Source: an uncultured Chthonomonas sp.
GTDB taxonomy: Bacteria; Armatimonadota; Chthonomonadetes; Chthonomonadales; Chthonomonadaceae
NCBI GenBank assembly: GCA_903859705.1
Contig: CAIONQ010000091.1
Coordinates: 1-46,451, forward strand
DNA length: 46,451 nt
Direction: 5' to 3'
This document shows, one piece after another, positions 812-10,861 of this stretch; position 1 is the first letter of the stretch, and every line of letters begins with the position of its first letter. The notes below the pieces were generated by a model. That model was not told where the DNA came from. It saw only the letters and a list, made by a program, of their open reading frames with translations, and searched no databases. Position numbers and translations under genes: made by a program.

Positions 812-3800
812 TCAGTCCGAAACGGCCTCGTCGCGCAGTGCAAACATCTCTTTCAGGTCTGTATTGGAGAGCTTTGTAATCCAATCCTCACCGGTTCCCA
901 CCACCTTGGTGGCCAGGGTGTGTTTGCTCTCTATCATAGAATCGATGCGCTCTTCCAGCGTGCCAAGGCACACAAACTTATGCACCTGCACGTTTCGCTT
1001 CTGGCCAATTCTAAAGGCTCTATCGGTTGCCTGGTTCTCCACAGCCGGGTTCCACCAGCGATCGAAATGGAATACATGGTTGGCTGCTGTAAGGTTAAGC
1101 CCGGTGCCGCCTGCACGCAACGATAGGATGAAGAGGGCAGGTCCACCAGATCCCGATTGAAACCGCTCCACCATGCTATCGCGTTGCTTTTTGGATACGC
1201 CGCCATGCAGAAACAGCACCTCTGTGCCAAATGTCTCCTGAAGATGTTTCTTAAGCAGCTCCCCCATCTCTGCAAACTGCGTAAACAGCAGCGCACGGTC
1301 TCCCGATTCTATTACCTCTTCCAGCATCTCAGTAATGCGGGTCAACTTGCCAGATCTATCTGTAAGGCCGCTGTTATCTTTCAGAAACTGCGCCGGATGG
1401 TTGCAGATCTGCTTAATTTTAGAAAGGGCAGCCAGCACCACACCGCTGCGGTGAATCCCCTCTGCACCCTCTATGCCTTGCTCAAGCTCGTTTACTACGG
1501 CCCGGTACAGGGTTGCCTGCTCCGAAGTGAGGGTGCAATACACCTTCATCTCTTGCTTTTCTGGCAGGTCGCTAATAATGGTTTTATCCGTTTTCAGGCG
1601 CCGAAGCAAGAAGGGGGTGGTTAGCTGCTTTAGCTTTGCCGTGGCGGCAGCATCGCCATTTACCTGAATTGGCATAAAAAACTTACGCCGAAAAGCGGCC
1701 TGGCTGCCCAGAAAGCCGGGGTTGGTAAACTCCATGAGCGACCATAGGTCGCCAATATGATTTTCGACCGGTGTGCCTGTTAGCGCTATGCGGAAATCGG
1801 AAGTCAGGCTGCGTGCCGCCTTCGATTGCCTTGTTTCCGGGTTTTTGATGTTCTGAGCTTCATCAAGGATAACTCCGCCCCATTCAACCGTTTTCAGCAG
1901 CTCAATATCGCGGCTCAGCAAGGCATAGCTGGATAAAACCAGGGCTGCGTCCGAAATCTCCTTTTTAAATGCGGCACCCTTTGCCCGTGCAGATCCATGA
2001 TGAACCACCGCACGCAGTTCAGGAGTAAACCGCTGCACCTCTTTTTGCCAGTTACCAATTACAGATGTGGGGCAAACAATGAGCACCGGCTTGGCAGAGC
2101 CAGCTTCTACCTGCCTCTGAACAAGGGCGAGAGTGGTGCAGGTTTTGCCAAGCCCCATGTCGTCTGCAAGGCACGCGCCCAATCCCCACTGGCGCAGAAA
2201 CTCCATCCAGGCATAACCCCGGTGTTGGTAGGGCCTCAGCGTTCCCACAAATTGGCGCGGTATTGCAACCTCCTGGCCATCGGCCTGGCTGTTCAAGCCA
2301 TTCAGAAACCCCTGCATCCAGCCAGTGGCCTTAACCCCCTTAACATCCAGCCCGTTTGCCGCTTCCGATGCCCCAAGGCCAATCCTCACCACATCCCGCA
2401 CAGAGCGCTTCTCTGCCCTATGCTGCTTCCAGAAAGCGATTGCCGCTTCAATTTCTGCAGAATCCAGCTGTACCCACTGGCCCCTTACCTTTACAAGCGA
2501 GCTCTTCTGCCGGGCCACCGCTTCAAGCTCCTCAAGCGTAAGCGCACTCTCACCAAGCACAATCTCCCAGTCTACATCTACAAGGCTATCCAGCGAGAGG
2601 CCAGCCCGGGAAGTCATCTTAGGAGTTTTTACCGAGGCGCGAACACCCAGCTTCGTCCGCATCCCCTTACGGGTCCACCATGCAGGTAATAGCACGCCAA
2701 AACCTGCCTGTTCCAGCATCCAGGCGGTTTCTGTCAAAAAGGTCTGAGCGGTATCAACCCCGCATTCAAACCTACTGGGAGCCTGCGTGCGCAAGCTGTT
2801 TTCAATCTCGGGGCTAACTCTGGCAGCCATTCCAAGGGCAGAAAGCAGATATTCCCGGGGTTTGAACTCTGGCCGGATCAGGTGCTTAGCACCATCACTT
2901 TGCTCTTTCCAGGCATCAGAAACAGGAATCAGGAGGCTCGGATCGTCGCATGCCTGCAACAGGTAGTCTACCGACCACTCTGTTTCCTCGGTTACCCCTT
3001 CAGCACTCTCATCAGTGCCGCTGGCAGGTTCATTGAGGCGAAAGCAGAGCTTAAACGGGGCATCAAGGGATACTCGCAATGGCGAGCGCCACTCAACAAT
3101 CTGAGATGCAAGCTGGCTCAGCTCACGCGTATCGCCAGGCATCTCCCCGGTGCTGGTGCAAAGGGCAAACAACCACTGCTCATGAACGCTTGCAAACGTA
3201 TTGCGTGCGGCGTGCGCTGCCTGGTTTGCAGGAGGCATGCTGCGATAGGGATTGTTTGCATACCGAACAATATAATCGCAATACACAGAAACAAACCGGG
3301 AAAGCAGGGCACCCGCTGCGGTATTAGGAGCCTTTGTGTTGCCCACTTCTGTTACAGCCCGGCAGGCATGCGGCATTGCGGCTGCCAGCTGCTTCATGCG
3401 TTCAGAATTAGGATGGTTGAGGCAGGCCTGCCACCGTGCGACCCAGTTTCGATTTTCGAACACCAGGTTCGGCAAAAACTGCTGTTGTGTAACCAGCCCG
3501 GCAACAAAATTGAGCGCCTGCGCCAGGTATTGGAAGGATGCACCAAAAATAACGCCTGACTCTGCAGAGGCAACCTTCAACACCGATATTGCCTGATCAG
3601 GCGCAAGTGATATGCCTGTAACTTGCCAGCAGCAAATGGATGGGGCGCTGGTGGAAATAGGCAGCTCATCTATGATAGCACTGGACGGGATGGGGCCGTT
3701 CTTTGAAGTTGGTAGCCACGCGAGCACCGGCTGCGGTTTGGGCAAATCCTTTGTTTTGAGAAAGCCTGCCGCTGCAATCACCTTGCTCAGCAGTTTTGAA

Positions 3801-3949
3801 TCGGCATCATATGGCGATGGAAGGGGAGCTTTTGGGCTGCTCTTGCCTGCCGGTGCTGTACCGGGATCTGTACTTGCCGAACGCATTGCCGATTGCTCTG
3901 CCCAAAACACAATATTGGGGCCGCTAAAACTCGCATGAACAATCAGCAT
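812..3949 (-). CDS. SNF2-family DEAD/DEAH helicase-like ATPase
   Basis: This is a protein of about 1045 aa with a long N-terminal SNF2-associated region (about residues 1-560), a SNF2 ATPase domain and a helicase C domain. Visible motifs are Walker A DDMGLGKT near residue 600, motif II DEAQ, motif III LTGTPVEN, and the C-terminal GGTGLNLTAANHVFHFDRWWNP and RAFRIGQ boxes. It is expected to translocate on double-stranded DNA and remodel protein-DNA complexes, with the adjacent SWIM protein as its likely partner. The frame extends four codons further to a GTG at 3961. I prefer the ATG at 3949 because the resulting MLIVHASF N-terminus resembles other members and GAGGAG lies upstream. Length and motifs look complete. 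Confidence 0.93.
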   Translation of the reverse strand: MLIVHASFSGPNIVFWAEQSAMRSASTDPGTAPAGKSSPKAPLPSPYDADSKLLSKVIAAAGFLKTKDLPKPQPVLAWLPTSKNGPIPSSAIIDELPISTSAPSICCWQVTGISLAPDQAISVLKVASAESGVIFGASFQYLAQALNFVAGLVTQQQFLPNLVFENRNWVARWQACLNHPNSERMKQLAAAMPHACRAVTEVGNTKAPNTAAGALLSRFVSVYCDYIVRYANNPYRSMPPANQAAHAARNTFASVHEQWLFALCTSTGEMPGDTRELSQLASQIVEWRSPLRVSLDAPFKLCFRLNEPASGTDESAEGVTEETEWSVDYLLQACDDPSLLIPVSDAWKEQSDGAKHLIRPEFKPREYLLSALGMAARVSPEIENSLRTQAPSRFECGVDTAQTFLTETAWMLEQAGFGVLLPAWWTRKGMRTKLGVRASVKTPKMTSRAGLSLDSLVDVDWEIVLGESALTLEELEAVARQKSSLVKVRGQWVQLDSAEIEAAIAFWKQHRAEKRSVRDVVRIGLGASEAANGLDVKGVKATGWMQGFLNGLNSQADGQEVAIPRQFVGTLRPYQHRGYAWMEFLRQWGLGACLADDMGLGKTCTTLALVQRQVEAGSAKPVLIVCPTSVIGNWQKEVQRFTPELRAVVHHGSARAKGAAFKKEISDAALVLSSYALLSRDIELLKTVEWGGVILDEAQNIKNPETRQSKAARSLTSDFRIALTGTPVENHIGDLWSLMEFTNPGFLGSQAAFRRKFFMPIQVNGDAAATAKLKQLTTPFLLRRLKTDKTIISDLPEKQEMKVYCTLTSEQATLYRAVVNELEQGIEGAEGIHRSGVVLAALSKIKQICNHPAQFLKDNSGLTDRSGKLTRITEMLEEVIESGDRALLFTQFAEMGELLKKHLQETFGTEVLFLHGGVSKKQRDSMVERFQSGSGGPALFILSLRAGGTGLNLTAANHVFHFDRWWNPAVENQATDRAFRIGQKRNVQVHKFVCLGTLEERIDSMIESKHTLATKVVGTGEDWITKLSNTDLKEMFALRDEAVSD

Positions 3950-4183
3950 TCCCTGTAGCACTCCTCAATACGGCCCACGCACAACAGATGGGCGTTGAGC
4001 ATCTGTGGGCAAAAGTATGGATGCCCTGGAAGTAAGTTGGACGCATTGCGTACTGCCCGTGGCACGTGCTCGCCTATTCGAGAAACTGCGCTCACAACCC
4101 TGCAAAGTGTAGCTGGCTGAGGTGTGTAACGGTACATTAGAACAAGACAACGAGCCATTGACCGCACAGTGATTTTGAGGCTT

Positions 4184-5087: not shown

Positions 5088-6401
5088 CTACAGCGCCGGG
5101 TTATCCCTACTGGCGGCATGCCACTCCAGTATCTTTCGCCAGAACGCTGAATAATCTGTCCATTTAATCCAGCTTTGTGTGCCCTGCGGCTGAAATAGAA
5201 TAGCAGTAACCCTGCCAGCGCCAAACCGGCCGCGTGCAATCAGTGGGCCGCTCCCGCTGCCCGTAGTAGCGAGCACCACTGCAGCATCTGGCCTAAGCGA
5301 AGCTGCGTTACTCTCACTCAGCGGTGGCGAAGCCGCCCAATCAATCCCATTGAATGTTGCATCCCCCTCTACAGAACGCACTCTGGTTGGCCCGGTTCGC
5401 ATTACACTCTGCCCTATTGCCGACATATCTGCCGATACAATATTGGCAATATCCTTGCCTGTTAACGCAACATACGCCCTGCCGCCACCCAGGTCTGCAA
5501 TCTGCTTCATAAACTTGATTTCTGGCTTTTCACAATTGTAGGCTACGGTTGAAACAGTTACACCAGCAGCTTTTATTGCCTTGAGAAGTCCGGGCATCTT
5601 ACCAACACCCTCTTCATATATCGCATCCCCATCGCCGACAAGAATAATGTGTTTGACCTTTGCCCCGGTTTTAACAACCTCGCGGTGGGCGTTTCTCAAA
5701 AACTTTTCGTAGGACGATGGGTCGCCGAGGCTGGCGAATTTTTCGATCTTAAAGCGCAGCACATCGGTATCATGAACCAATTCAAGCGGCACCAGCCACT
5801 GCCCTTCGGTTTCTGATTTAGGATCTGGAAGGAAGGAGCCATTGCAATCCAATACTCCAAACCAATCGCAGGGCTCCAATAAACTGGCCGTTAGCTTGCA
5901 AAACTCCTTTGGCCACGTCTCGAAGGCCTGTACCTCCGCTTCTTCTATCACCACGGCCACCGCTGCACTTTCGGGCCGGTCGTCGGGTTTTACATCCATA
6001 CTAACGGGCAGCATTTCCTCTATCTGGGTGCCCCGGTACCCACCGGAGGCAAAACTGTTTCTCCCACCAATCATGCAGAAGCCAACACCATATTCTTTGC
6101 ATGCGATGGCAATGGCGCGCATCTGAACGCGCGAAAACTCCGATGCACGGACGTTATCAATAACAATTAAGTTGTACTTCTTTAGCTCTTCCGCCGATGC
6201 AGGAACGGTTTTGGGGCGAATGAGTTTTATGGCTGATGCCCCGTTCGGAAACAAATCGGTGGGTATTCCAACCTTCTGATCTGGGCCGGCAATATACAGG
6301 ATGGCCCCTCCGGTTTGAAATGCTGAAACCGGCCGGATTGCCGCAGATAACAGAGTGCAAATCAGGAACAAAATTGCAGCGAACAAAGAGTTCTGGCGCA
6401 T
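5088..6401 (-). CDS. Secreted VWA-like / class I amidotransferase-fold protein
   Basis: This 437-aa protein starts with a signal peptide (hydrophobic residues about 7-27, then SAF). The first half holds an amidotransferase-like fold with the segment GGRNSFASGGYRGTQIEEMLPV. This is typical of the large 'VWA plus amidotransferase-like' proteins of BatA type. Around residues 250-300 VKHIILVGDGDA and GVTVSTVAYN resemble a VWA core. The C-terminal RGRFGAGRVTAILF and FWRKILEW are also characteristic of that group. These proteins are usually envelope proteins of unknown substrate. No catalytic Cys-His-Glu triad is evident, so an enzymatic role is not supported. It stands alone, convergent with higA. 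Confidence 0.75.
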   Translation of the reverse strand: MRQNSLFAAILFLICTLLSAAIRPVSAFQTGGAILYIAGPDQKVGIPTDLFPNGASAIKLIRPKTVPASAEELKKYNLIVIDNVRASEFSRVQMRAIAIACKEYGVGFCMIGGRNSFASGGYRGTQIEEMLPVSMDVKPDDRPESAAVAVVIEEAEVQAFETWPKEFCKLTASLLEPCDWFGVLDCNGSFLPDPKSETEGQWLVPLELVHDTDVLRFKIEKFASLGDPSSYEKFLRNAHREVVKTGAKVKHIILVGDGDAIYEEGVGKMPGLLKAIKAAGVTVSTVAYNCEKPEIKFMKQIADLGGGRAYVALTGKDIANIVSADMSAIGQSVMRTGPTRVRSVEGDATFNGIDWAASPPLSESNAASLRPDAAVVLATTGSGSGPLIARGRFGAGRVTAILFQPQGTQSWIKWTDYSAFWRKILEWHAASRDNPAL

Positions 6402-6689
6402 ATTCCCTCCACCTGAATGTATATGAGCTTAACCAGGCACCAGCCTGCATAAAAAGTGCCTCTCGCGAACCGGGCCAAACCAGATTCTACCTGCACAAGT
6501 TGCCATATAGGGCGGCATTCAAATATCGCCTGCCCCAGCTTTGGAAATAATCGGCTCTGTTTACGGCATCCATTTAAGCAAACTTCTCGCCTGTTCTATA
6601 AAGAGCTGAACCCTGTACTTACGGTGCATGGGCAACCCAATAATCCCGTTGGATTGCAGCGGCAGCCGTGCAGAAGGAGGGCACTATTG

Positions 6690-7304
6690 ATGAAACTGGC
6701 AGAGTTTGAGCAGCACTTTGATGCATTTTGGAAGGAAAGATACGCACTGTATGATCCTTCCACCAACCATTGGAGCCGCGCCCGAGCAGACACGGAAGCC
6801 CGGCAGCAGTGCCGAGATATGCTGATGGAATATGCCCGAGAATCACAGAAGGTGGGCATTTCTCGCCAGAACAAGAATAAAGCGCAACGGTTATTTGAAG
6901 AGCTTGGAGTAGATCCCACGACGCTTGAATTTCCAGGTGCAAACCAGGCAGCAGAGCCATGGGCTGCAAAACAAACACTGGCCACCAGCAAGGGCCGGAT
7001 TATGTACCTGGAGCGCAAAACCAGTAAGAATTATGGGGAGGCCGTTATTGGTAGGGTTACAGCCTCCAAAAGTGGCAGAACACTTTACTATGGCGGAATG
7101 GCTTTCCAGCATATCAAAGATGCGGCATCAAACTACCGTTGCGTTGAAACCGGCGAGCACTACTGGATATCTGGCTGCAAGCACGATGGCAGCGATCGCC
7201 TTTTTGGAGAGCGCGTACCTATTTTAATTGATGACGATGTGCGTTCGGAGTACTGGTGCCGCATTCGAAACCTGCCCGAATGCAAGGATAAGAGGGCAGT
7301 GTAG
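6690..7304 (+). CDS. Conserved protein of unknown function ('GRxTxSKxGRTLYY' family)
   Basis: This is a 204-aa protein. The frame is open upstream to 6456, but AAGGAGG at 6674-6680 sits 9 bp before the ATG at 6690, which decides the start. The second half carries IGRVTASKSGRTLYYGGMAF, then YRCVETGEHYWISG and KHDGSDRLFGERVPI. I recall this compact conserved domain from many bacteria, where it is often mislabelled as 1-deoxyxylulose-5-phosphate synthase; nothing here resembles that large enzyme. No signal peptide or membrane segment is seen. The function is unknown. Confidence 0.75.
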   Translation: MKLAEFEQHFDAFWKERYALYDPSTNHWSRARADTEARQQCRDMLMEYARESQKVGISRQNKNKAQRLFEELGVDPTTLEFPGANQAAEPWAAKQTLATSKGRIMYLERKTSKNYGEAVIGRVTASKSGRTLYYGGMAFQHIKDAASNYRCVETGEHYWISGCKHDGSDRLFGERVPILIDDDVRSEYWCRIRNLPECKDKRAV

Positions 7305-7393
7305 GGCAGGGGGAGTTCGATAGATGGAAGTGGTTGAACATGTAGCGCATCGCAGCTAAGTGCGCCTGTCATTACACGAATTCGCTCGAATGT

Positions 7394-7996
7394 TCAGCTC
7401 AAACGCAATCTCTCCTGCGCATTTCTGGCCGTTTCACGCAGGGACAGTGTTTCAGGGAACATCGCCGGGTTCGCGGAAAGCTGGCGTAGTGGCCCGCTCA
7501 TACTCTCATTCCACAACAGCGGTACGCAACTCAAAATAGCTTCTATCAAGCAAATGTCGCTACTCTTGAGTAAGTGGTCAATGGCTTTGTACTCCTTGCG
7601 ATCCAATTTGTAACTCTGTTCGGGTAAACCGCTTTGAAGGATATGCTTAAGGCGGGTTCGGGCTGAGGATGCAATCTCGTTATTCCGGATGCATGCAACC
7701 CGCGCGAGGTCTCCAACGCAAGTGCTGGCCATAATTAGCTCCTCCTCAACCAACCGTGGCAGCCGCAACTTCCGAAAGTGACGAATACAGGAAACAACGG
7801 TGGATGCCCAGACAACAGCCGTTAGGGCCATACCATAGGACCAGTACACTGGCGGTAGCATCCCAATTAAAGTAAGCATCATCGGCACCACCCATACGGT
7901 AAGAACAACGAAGCAAACCAGGTGAAGCGCAGACCTCAACCGGCGCCGCAACTGGCGTTGTTGTATGCTACGAAATAGAGGTGAAGGCGCTGGCAT
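7394..7996 (-). CDS. Small membrane protein of unknown function
   Basis: This 200-aa protein has a basic N-terminus (RQLRRRLR), then two hydrophobic segments at about residues 24-46 and 50-68, and a soluble, mostly helical C-terminal region of about 130 aa. The positive-inside rule suggests both ends face the cytoplasm. I do not recognise a family. The ATG at 7996 has only a distant GGGAG upstream, so a later start cannot be excluded. It is flanked by divergent or unrelated genes. Confidence 0.55.
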   Translation of the reverse strand: MPAPSPLFRSIQQRQLRRRLRSALHLVCFVVLTVWVVPMMLTLIGMLPPVYWSYGMALTAVVWASTVVSCIRHFRKLRLPRLVEEELIMASTCVGDLARVACIRNNEIASSARTRLKHILQSGLPEQSYKLDRKEYKAIDHLLKSSDICLIEAILSCVPLLWNESMSGPLRQLSANPAMFPETLSLRETARNAQERLRLS

Positions 7997-8151
7997 CTAA
8001 AAGTGGTACTCCCTGATTTATGCAAACAAGTGAAGAGTGCCTACTTTTGGCACAATTGTGTGGGTAGTCTCCGGAGCATCATAGCTGACTACTGCAATCA
8101 CTTCCATAATGAAACAACCCGGTAGCCCGGCCGAGGCATCACTGCAGTCGA

Positions 8152-8649
8152 TCATCTTTCTCCGATCGAAGATGCAATGAGCAGCCACACACCACTCTTC
8201 TTAACCCACTTCTCCTTACGCCAGGAATCGCCGATACTGATAGACCTGGCACCACCCCTGGAAACCGCCTTTTCCATTACGAAATCACCCTCATGAATTT
8301 GCAATATCGCCGTATCATTTGTACAGCTTATTGAATCGATATCCACATGGGAATTTATGGGGCCAGAAGAGGCGAAAAATTTGAGCCTTTGCGCGCGATA
8401 TTGAGCATATCCAGACTTGTGCCCACTAGAATCACGCTCAACGAAATCGTTTGAGAACACCGCCATCACACCTTTGATATCTTTTGCATCCTGGGCTTTG
8501 CAATATTTGTTGTATTGCGTCCCGATAGCCTTGCGGGCATCTGCCGTTGGATCGGCGCAAGCAGGAGAACCAGATAACGGCAGCAGGCCTGCTGCCACCG
8601 CAACGAGAACAGCTGCTGTTTGCTTCACGCTTTTCAATCTGCTGGCCAT
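8152..8649 (-). CDS. Exported NTF2/SnoaL-like protein
   Basis: This 165-aa protein has a signal peptide (basic start, hydrophobic AAVLVAVAAGLLPLSG, then CADP). The mature part resembles the SnoaL/NTF2-like fold: an opening helix with YNKYCKAQDAKDIKGVMAVFSNDF, followed by beta strands and a closing WRKEKWVKKSGVWLL strand. These domains form small conical pockets and many are non-enzymatic. GGAG lies 8 bp before the ATG. The product is probably periplasmic; no ligand can be named. Confidence 0.7.
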   Translation of the reverse strand: MASRLKSVKQTAAVLVAVAAGLLPLSGSPACADPTADARKAIGTQYNKYCKAQDAKDIKGVMAVFSNDFVERDSSGHKSGYAQYRAQRLKFFASSGPINSHVDIDSISCTNDTAILQIHEGDFVMEKAVSRGGARSISIGDSWRKEKWVKKSGVWLLIASSIGER

Positions 8650-8884
8650 GGTTTAGGCTCCCTGCGCTACCGCTCTTTAACTACACATGATTCCAATTGT
8701 ACCTTGGGATGATGGAGGGGGTGTGATTCAGGTATTCTTGTATCCTTAGTCCTGTGGCATCCCGCAGGCAACCGTTTTGCCCGGCAGTCAAACCTTTTGG
8801 TGACCTCAATCTGGGTACCGGGTAGGAAATTGAGACGGGATGCACTGTATCTTAAACCACGTACTTTAATAGCGAAACACAGCC

Positions 8885-10861
8885 ATGCAAAACAATGACT
8901 ACTCTGAATTGCCGACAGCTCCTATAGAAGATGCCGACAGCCTGGATGCTGAACCTGAACGGCTGTATAGCGATAGGGAGGCGGAGGCCGTTCACGCTGC
9001 CGTTCTTGCCTCTAAAGAAAGGCGGCGCCTCAGGCTTAAGAAGGCACAGCCGAAGCGCAAAGGCACCGCGAAGGAACCGTTCACCCTACCCCAAATTCTT
9101 GCCTGGGTAGATTCGCACCACAGCAGAACAGGTGCCTGGCCAACGATCACCTCAGGCCCAGTATTTGAATCTCCAACCGATACCTGGAGCATAATTAACG
9201 ATAGCCTGCAGCATGGCCATCGCGGCTGCCCCGGCGGCTCATCTCTCCGTAAACTCCTAATAAGCGAGCATCGCATCCAACGAGCTGGCAATACACGCCG
9301 TGAAAACTGGACTGAAACCGGGATATTAGAGCTGGCAGATCGGTTTTATGCTGAACAGGGTCGTTGGCCCAACCCTAATGATGGGCCACTTGAGGAAGGC
9401 TCAAAAGCGACCTGGGTAGCTGTTGATATTGCTCTCAGAAAAGGCAACCGGGGGCTGCCGGGTGGGTCTTCACTAATTCGTCTGCTTTCAAACAATCGTG
9501 GAGTACCGAACTGTGCGGACTTACCCGACTTTACGTATGACACTATTCTGAAATGGGCAGATAGTCATCATGCCCGCACGGGCAGTTGGCCGAAATCAAA
9601 TAGTGGCCCAATTCTTGAGTGTCCGGGAGAAACCTGGGCAGTTATGGATCAACGCATGCGCAAGGGACAGCGTGGTTTTGATCGCAAATTGCCTCTGGCA
9701 CATTTCCTGCATGCAGAACGCGGAGCGCGTATTTATCACAAAGTACAACCACTGAACATACAGGATATCCGGCAGTGGATCCAGCATCACTATGAAACAA
9801 CCGGCAACTGGCCAACAAATGATAGTGGAGACGTGCTTGCTGCACCGGGAGAGGTATGGAGCTCTGTGGAAGCAGCACTGAACCAGGGTGGTCGTGGTCT
9901 GCCTTATGTATCCAGTCTGGCCAAACTAACCGCAGAGATGGGTGGAAAACGAAAAACAGTAACGCAAAAACACAATCTGACAATGCCTGTTGTTGTTCAG
10001 AAAATCGCAGAATATCATGCACAGCATAATGTATGGCCCACCGCTACTACCAAAAACCCAGTGCCTGGCACGCAGGACACCTGGTGCGCCATCGATCTTG
10101 CCTTGAGGAGAGGCAACAGAGGGCTGCCAGGGGGCACATCCTTGTCCACCCTCATCGCGGATGAATTCGCTGTGGTGAGCCACATTAAACAGCCGACTCT
10201 CACTTTCGATATGATCCTGAACTGGTGCGACTCTCATAAAGCCACTACAGGGGACTGGCCCACAGCAAAAAGCGGCACCGTGTTAGATAGCCCCCATGAG
10301 AATTGGGCCCGCATCGCACGCAGCATGGATCGTGGTCAACGCGGTTTGCCGCAAGCGATCTCGCTATCCAGACTTCTGGAAAGAGAACGGGGTGTGCCAC
10401 ACAAATTCAGGCAGGATCTGACGGTAGAGTTAATTCTGGCCTGGGCAGATGACTATAACGCGACGTTTGGTAGATTACCTAATATGCACAGTGAAGAGAG
10501 TATTCCACAATCCCCCGGAGACAAGTGGCGCCACATCGACCATGCCCTGCGTGACGGCACCAGATCGCTGCCCGGAGGTAGTTCCCTCTCACAGTTGCTC
10601 GTTGAGTACCGTGGTAAGCGTACCCATCAAAACGCGCCGCCGCTATCCCCGGAGCAGATTGAGATCTGGGCCAGGCTGCATTTTGATAGAACAGGTACCT
10701 GGCCATCCTATGCTGCTGGAGGAAGGGTGCTGGATGCCCCGGAAGAGGCGTGGCGATCAATAAATGAGGCGTTGGCCAGAGGCAAACGCGGCTTGAAGGG
10801 CTGCGGCTACCGCTCCCTTGCGGAACTGCTTGACAAACGCATCCGCAAGGCAAATAGATAA
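8885..10861 (+). CDS. Protein made of eight tandem ~74-aa 'TGxWP' repeats
   Basis: After a charged N-terminal stretch of about 70 aa (with RRRLRLKKAQPKRK), the 658-aa chain is built entirely of eight repeats of about 74 aa. Each has the order ILxWxDxHhxxTGxWP, SGxVxxxPxexW, a helix, then GxRGLPGGSSLxxLL and a short linker. Repeats 3, 4, 6 and 8 deviate in the PGGSS turn. I recall similar repeats in large planctomycete proteins but know no defined function. The basic N-terminus and modular helices would fit nucleic-acid binding, which is speculation. No signal peptide is present, so it is probably cytoplasmic. There is no clear ribosome-binding site before the ATG. Confidence 0.75.
   Translation: MQNNDYSELPTAPIEDADSLDAEPERLYSDREAEAVHAAVLASKERRRLRLKKAQPKRKGTAKEPFTLPQILAWVDSHHSRTGAWPTITSGPVFESPTDTWSIINDSLQHGHRGCPGGSSLRKLLISEHRIQRAGNTRRENWTETGILELADRFYAEQGRWPNPNDGPLEEGSKATWVAVDIALRKGNRGLPGGSSLIRLLSNNRGVPNCADLPDFTYDTILKWADSHHARTGSWPKSNSGPILECPGETWAVMDQRMRKGQRGFDRKLPLAHFLHAERGARIYHKVQPLNIQDIRQWIQHHYETTGNWPTNDSGDVLAAPGEVWSSVEAALNQGGRGLPYVSSLAKLTAEMGGKRKTVTQKHNLTMPVVVQKIAEYHAQHNVWPTATTKNPVPGTQDTWCAIDLALRRGNRGLPGGTSLSTLIADEFAVVSHIKQPTLTFDMILNWCDSHKATTGDWPTAKSGTVLDSPHENWARIARSMDRGQRGLPQAISLSRLLERERGVPHKFRQDLTVELILAWADDYNATFGRLPNMHSEESIPQSPGDKWRHIDHALRDGTRSLPGGSSLSQLLVEYRGKRTHQNAPPLSPEQIEIWARLHFDRTGTWPSYAAGGRVLDAPEEAWRSINEALARGKRGLKGCGYRSLAELLDKRIRKANR

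Follow-up and report, generated by a model that had tools for sequence, protein, structure and literature searches.

The window, that is, the whole stretch of DNA analysed here (46,451 nucleotides), comprises positions 1 to 46,451 of contig CAIONQ010000091.1 (GCA_903859705.1) from an uncultured Chthonomonas sp. The array gene described here starts with an ATG at 8885, and its stop codon ends at 10861. The features of this open reading frame (ORF) are as follows.

8885..10861, + strand: whole ORF, 658 aa plus stop, with leader, charged helix and eight modules
8885..9070, + strand: N-terminal region (aa 1-62), low-confidence tail, then predicted helix aa 30-53
9071..9292, + strand: module 1, profile match
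9299..9520, + strand: module 2, profile match
9521..9742, + strand: module 3, profile match, first half of the AlphaFold2 two-module model
9743..9964, + strand: module 4, profile match, second half of the AlphaFold2 two-module model
9968..10189, + strand: module 5, profile match, the weakest at 46 bits (planctomycete-only profile)
10190..10411, + strand: module 6, profile match
10409..10633, + strand: module 7, profile match
10634..10858, + strand: module 8, profile match

A preliminary description of the locus reported eight tandem modules of about 74 aa, regularly spaced and filling nearly the whole protein, and this is borne out by anchors, profile and shuffles. The G-x-W/L-P anchors are spaced 76, 74, 74, 75, 74, 73, and 75 aa apart. 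A profile built exclusively from 43 modules of planctomycetes finds exactly eight domains in the window protein (46-86 bits), and the top score of the same profile on 500 shuffled versions of the protein is 5.9 bits. The eight modules share 20-42% pairwise identity and a DNA repeat finder detects nothing beyond scattered 16-18 nt matches between 8700 and 11000, so they are old repeats and not a recent DNA tandem. The array has a net charge of about +13.9 and a pI of 9.3, and pI values across four array proteins are 9.1-10.4. The N-terminus, described as basic, is so within aa 30-62 (net charge about +6.9) and not over aa 1-62 as a whole (about -0.4).

Two sets of modules were aligned, a first of 128 modules from 27 frames and a second of 80 modules from 15 frames, the latter unused in choosing columns. 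Near-constant columns in the first set include W12, G21, W23, P24, G29, W39 (present in 125/125), A45, L46, G49, R51, G52, S58, L59, and L63. Structure prediction had been suggested in the preliminary description. AlphaFold2, given window modules 3 and 4 and 39 two-module rows as input, yields a mean pLDDT of 88.6 and three helices per module, which in the first module of the pair span 6-20, 39-48, and 59-67, with single bridge residues at 30 and 38. The predicted order within a module is helix 1, the W-P turn, a small beta bridge, helix 2 starting from the invariant W, the R-G-L turn, and helix 3. The full-length model retains this pattern. Its pTM is 0.23 and its confidence between modules is low, and no inference is therefore made on module stacking.

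The same preliminary description could not name the module, and this is still the case after sequence, profile, and fold searches; a match to a well-characterised repeat family was looked for and not found. The window ORF has no sequence match in Pfam, NCBIfam, or PDB, and nothing in PADLOC; its best match in PHROGs is PHROG 3102 (E 0.17). Pfam searches with 65 single modules return nothing credible (best E 0.032, for one module), and the module profile against PDB gives chance-level rows only. Among the structural searches, Foldseek against PDB has 0 of 101 rows at E 0.001 (best E 0.57), and a viral structure library has 0 of 94 (best E 0.095). VIA-align reaches a best Z of 3.6, with ribosomal, sigma-factor, and TetR chains, and these matches are common helical arrangements. 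No HA (helicase associated) domain chain is listed among the PDB rows, an absence without weight for or against kinship. No paper on the repeat was found in the literature searched.

The profile search across bacteria that had been proposed places the module also in Planctomycetota and shows it to be rare in the window's own phylum. Two further array genes are present in the window genome (G000), on contigs 97 and 98. The contig-97 paralogue (L007 4783-6900) is 56% identical to the window protein and has eight modules in the same order, the fifth about ten residues shorter, and it also contains the sequence of the window protein's N-terminal region. The contig-98 paralogue has four modules. 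In the window's phylum, Armatimonadota, the module is found in at least 2 of 291 genomes, these being G000 and one of the same order; it was not found in the genus mate G001 in this phylum search. A consensus scan of genome contigs gave 473 pattern matches and seven confirmed loci, all of them titled Planctomycetota or subgroups (among them Gemmataceae, Limnoglobus roseus, and a Phycisphaerae bacterium). Of 392 genomes sampled evenly from the phylum of Limnoglobus, at least 5 have the module, with the centre genome counted, and in the Limnoglobus family at least 19 of 95, of which four are previously known positives; like the Armatimonadota count, these are lower bounds, as only so many candidates were scored in each genome. 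Plasmids and phages, searched with P0003 and the consensus, and viral contigs, searched with the window protein and the consensus, give no match. Several planctomycete genomes have at least three arrays, and some planctomycete arrays are split or interrupted by stops. In the L033 array, six copies recur every 222 nt with 72-87% DNA identity to the reference copy, and arrays in that place have therefore grown more recently. A four-module array in G028 (L009 4912-6174, - strand) differs at its N-terminus, where a region of about 100 aa has no Pfam match.

This scattered distribution could mean that the window copy is a horizontal acquisition in decay, with no present function. The two positive genomes out of 291 in the phylum, the negative genus mate, and the split or stop-broken planctomycete copies are consistent with this. 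The window copy, however, is intact across eight modules, and module order and 56% identity are kept between it and the contig-97 paralogue. Selection on the module set also argues against decay: 30 disjoint close module pairs give pN 0.174, pS 0.447, and pN/pS 0.39, well under 1, and the module is under overall purifying selection. We consider decay very unlikely.

Genomic neighbourhoods were scanned for seven neighbours in the window and ten flanking frames elsewhere, and no neighbour is common to the array loci examined. The window ORF is surrounded by genes for a SnoaL-like protein, two uncharacterised proteins, and a GATase1-like protein, and no conserved neighbour with known function lies beside it. 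An SNF2 helicase with DUF3670 is located further off (window 812-3961, - strand; about 5 kb from the array), and nothing links it to the array. Scans for promoters, terminators, tRNAs, and Rfam families returned no result relevant to the array. Other arrays are flanked by FtsH, a kinase-tubulin-like fusion, HlyD, a phage-integrase-like protein, an SNF2 helicase, or a TrwC relaxase. For example, the five-module array of L142 (4271-8514) is followed about 200 nt on by an SNF2 helicase on the same strand, and the array of L033 stands beside a protein kinase fused to a tubulin-like domain (Tubulin_2; 6168-9869, - strand). The arrays of L143 (4354-8406) and L038 (2891-5891) adjoin a TrwC relaxase gene and a phage-integrase-like gene, respectively, and these may be mobile neighbourhoods.

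In the window genome, both paralogues lie near genes of AfsR appearance. The contig-97 ORF, as called, starts 3 nt beyond a co-oriented AfsR-like BTAD/NB-ARC/TPR gene (L007 1660-4779), and the contig-98 paralogue follows, at a distance of 2.8 kb downstream, a frame of similar appearance. An involvement of the array in the regulation of neighbouring AfsR/SARP-type genes would fit these two positions. It is contradicted by the window itself, where none of the seven scanned neighbours is of AfsR/SARP type, and by the planctomycete flanks, which vary by locus, and is regarded as most improbable.

Some proteins carry the module together with other domains. Among 35 array frames of three or more modules, most are stand-alone, with no enzyme domain. 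Eleven whole proteins were scanned against Pfam, and eight of these have a recognised helicase or HTH domain, a proportion that reflects the deliberate choice of long frames; no other credible domain was found by Pfam in the window ORF, L009, or L099. Six arrays of 4-6 modules are located C-terminal to SF2 helicases (ResIII/DEAD): L095, L096, and L097, all from one genome, and L098, L131, and L132. Within this set, L095-L098 and L132 have similar helicase parts, with 45-89% mutual identity. That of L131 has no BLAST match to the L095 group better than E 0.55, and matches helicases L109 and L111, which bear HA domains, at E 1e-75 and 4e-63. Since the two helicase groups lack meaningful BLAST similarity, the fusion of module and helicase arose at least twice. 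Cro/C1-type HTH domains (HTH_31) occur at the C-termini of L100 (E 1.5e-6, over the Pfam cut-off) and L101 (E 3e-5, just under it). These fusions provide a nucleic-acid context and do not single out the module over its partner as the part contacting DNA.

One of the fused proteins, L131, is a single open frame of 1142 aa with an Mrr_cat_2 nuclease (E 1e-30), a ResIII/DEAD helicase, and then six modules. The first plasmid match to its first 700 aa is L144 from Rhodococcus qingshengii, an enzyme with 50% identity over 693 aa in which Mrr_cat_2 and ResIII are followed by eight HA domains (PF03457, 8e-113). Two other Mrr-helicase enzymes, L145 and L146, have five HA at the place of the array. In these Rhodococcus proteins (L145 2537-5503; L146 2540-5515), ResIII covers the first half of the helicase and no Helicase_C is found at E 0.01. 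In L147, 39% identical to L131 over the nuclease and motor part, this place is taken by the coupler, methylase, and specificity domain of Type ISP enzymes. Searched with the module profile, L144-L147 yield no credible match. No relative of the L131 enzyme half was found in G000, G001, or G028, in a search run without a positive control. As judged from sequence, one enzyme chassis bears HA, the Type ISP recognition half, or this module at the same place.

Type ISP enzymes consist of an Mrr nuclease, an SF2 ATPase, a coupler, a methyltransferase, and a DNA-recognition domain (PMC4666363). L131 shares the Mrr nuclease and SF2 motor with this class, but a Pfam scan shows neither coupler, methylase, nor Type ISP specificity domain in it. 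The window ORF differs further and has none of the five domains, nuclease and motor included.

HA domains probably bind nucleic acid; in the literature searched, no paper on this binding was found. The module resembles HA in forming tandem arrays at the C-terminus of SF2 helicases, whether or not an Mrr nuclease precedes the helicase, and in occurring also as stand-alone arrays, the form of the window protein (HA arrays L108 and L112 have eight and seven copies). It differs in length, about 74 aa against about 65 aa, and in its W-P and RGLPGGSSL signatures.

It may be asked whether the module is simply a far-diverged HA, with the same fold and ancestry and an eroded sequence, which would be compatible with a role in binding nucleic acid. 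Such kinship is suggested by the same place and tandem habit in homologous Mrr-SF2 enzymes, by a comparable size, by marks that follow one another in a similar order (helix, G, P, W, R, helix), and by the BLAST alignment of L131 with L144, which extends to L131 residue 751, about 50 aa into module 1 against HA 1. The weak matches in the viral structure library include several giant-virus SF2 helicases, and a viral protein named 'Helicase associated domain' has the top query TM-score (0.45, non-significant); against this, all of these matches have E above 0.09. Sequence comparison also goes against kinship. PF03457 matches none of the 65 modules at E up to 10, nor the whole window ORF, and matches all positive controls (L108, L109, L111, L144, L145, and L146). 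In profile-profile alignment, module and HA score 9.86, as compared to 10.1 ± 2.2 for column-permuted HA, with 28 of 60 permutations reaching the score (44 of 60 in global mode); a smaller module profile gives the same result, with no excess over permutations, and two halves of the module family, used as positive control, score 209. HA membership by sequence is rejected on these scores. The module is classed as HA-like in role and not as HA. The two may share a fold, no fold match being significant, and remote common ancestry is judged possible, if rather unlikely.

HNH_repeat (PF18780) was also considered. It is likewise a small tandem helical module, and one record with such repeats is annotated as HNH endonuclease. 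Aligned to the module with hhalign, it scores 13.6 across just 8 columns, a value that the best of 60 permutations also reaches, and a PF18780 search of eight genomes, of which seven carry arrays, picked up no array module; with no Pfam match and a profile score within the permutations, this identity is rejected. A protein with HNH_repeat-like units (PF18780) is encoded on contig 163 of the window genome (L106 1366-2049, - strand), and its sequence is unrelated to the array.

The preferred reading, to which we assign a probability of roughly 0.7, is that the window ORF encodes a stand-alone array of an uncatalogued, putative nucleic-acid-binding module, in the role of HA arrays. In related bacteria the module is found on helicase and nuclease enzymes, at a place usually occupied by a different repeat, and the array therefore most likely grips DNA or RNA. 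The preliminary description had named nucleic acid among possible partners, and the fusions to SF2 helicase, Mrr nuclease, and HTH, together with the exchange with HA arrays, support that proposal. Against it, neither an enzyme domain nor a conserved neighbour with known function accompanies the window protein, and the fold searches yielded no significant match. Alternatively, the array could be a protein-protein scaffold which, in its fused forms, recruits factors to helicases and does not itself touch nucleic acid. The predominance of stand-alone arrays without enzyme domain would be expected of a scaffold, and variable surface positions suit a protein partner too. The scaffold is nonetheless unlikely in view of the methylase and DNA-recognition domains that the Type ISP relative L147 has at the place of the L131 array, the basic pI, and the HTH fusion.

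For a nucleic-acid-binding array, the following mode of action is proposed. Each module would touch a short DNA (or RNA) segment, probably through a surface made of helix 2 and the turn that follows W-P, and the array would lie along the nucleic acid, yielding affinity and perhaps specificity. In fused forms, the array may load or hold the helicase-nuclease on its target, and the stand-alone window protein may bind alone or in trans. Tandem helical nucleic-acid-binding arrays are known in general; the novelty lies in the module and in its interchange with HA on enzymes of Mrr-SF2 type.

Variation among modules was put forward in the preliminary description as a possible code for recognition of a partner, and the evidence on this point is suggestive at most: variable columns cluster in both module sets, but a helix-2 contrast after duplication is not replicated. 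The highest-entropy columns are 48, 40, 26, 50, and 44 in the first set and 26, 48, 44, 50, 27, 25, and 40 in the second, and the columns with most amino-acid change in the first set are 48, 40, 27, 44, and 47. Eight of the top nine variable columns of the second set fall within 25-27 plus 40-50, a region drawn after seeing both sets. Variability is thus highest in the turn that follows W-P and in helix 2 together with the next residue. Columns 40, 44, 47, and 48 have pN of 0.35-0.43 and pS of 0.35-0.43; they are near neutral and do not demonstrate positive selection. Among six duplicate pairs within arrays of the first set, these four positions are kept in 5 of 24 cases, versus 32 of 54 for other variable helix positions. 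In thirteen new within-array pairs from the second set, the values are 20 of 52 and 50 of 117 (p 0.62), and between arrays in that set 25 of 84 and 80 of 189 (p 0.06). The first-set contrast, an earlier divergence of helix 2 after duplication, thus does not recur in the second set, and no recognition code is claimed.

In TALE and PPR proteins, near-equal modules with few variable positions form arrays, and the present arrays are similar in both respects. The module differs from them in length and predicted secondary structure, and no code is shown. A continuous superhelix is unsupported, because the linkers are predicted with low confidence. A more specific proposal would be that the module is a DNA-reading unit, each copy reading one short element via a stripe formed by 40-44-47/48 of helix 2 with 25-27 and 50, and that arrays of 4-9 modules read long sites. 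The arrays would then serve as stand-alone binders in planctomycetes and the window's lineage, and in planctomycetes also to target Mrr-SF2 restriction-type enzymes that lack a methylase. This detailed version is considered quite unlikely.

These results give a context to a repeat family for which no entry was found in Pfam, NCBIfam, PHROGs, PADLOC, or PDB. They indicate that the C-terminal array of a restriction-type helicase-nuclease is exchangeable for a repeat without detectable sequence kinship. If the arrays do read sequence, they would represent a natural modular DNA-binding scaffold made of short, regular units.
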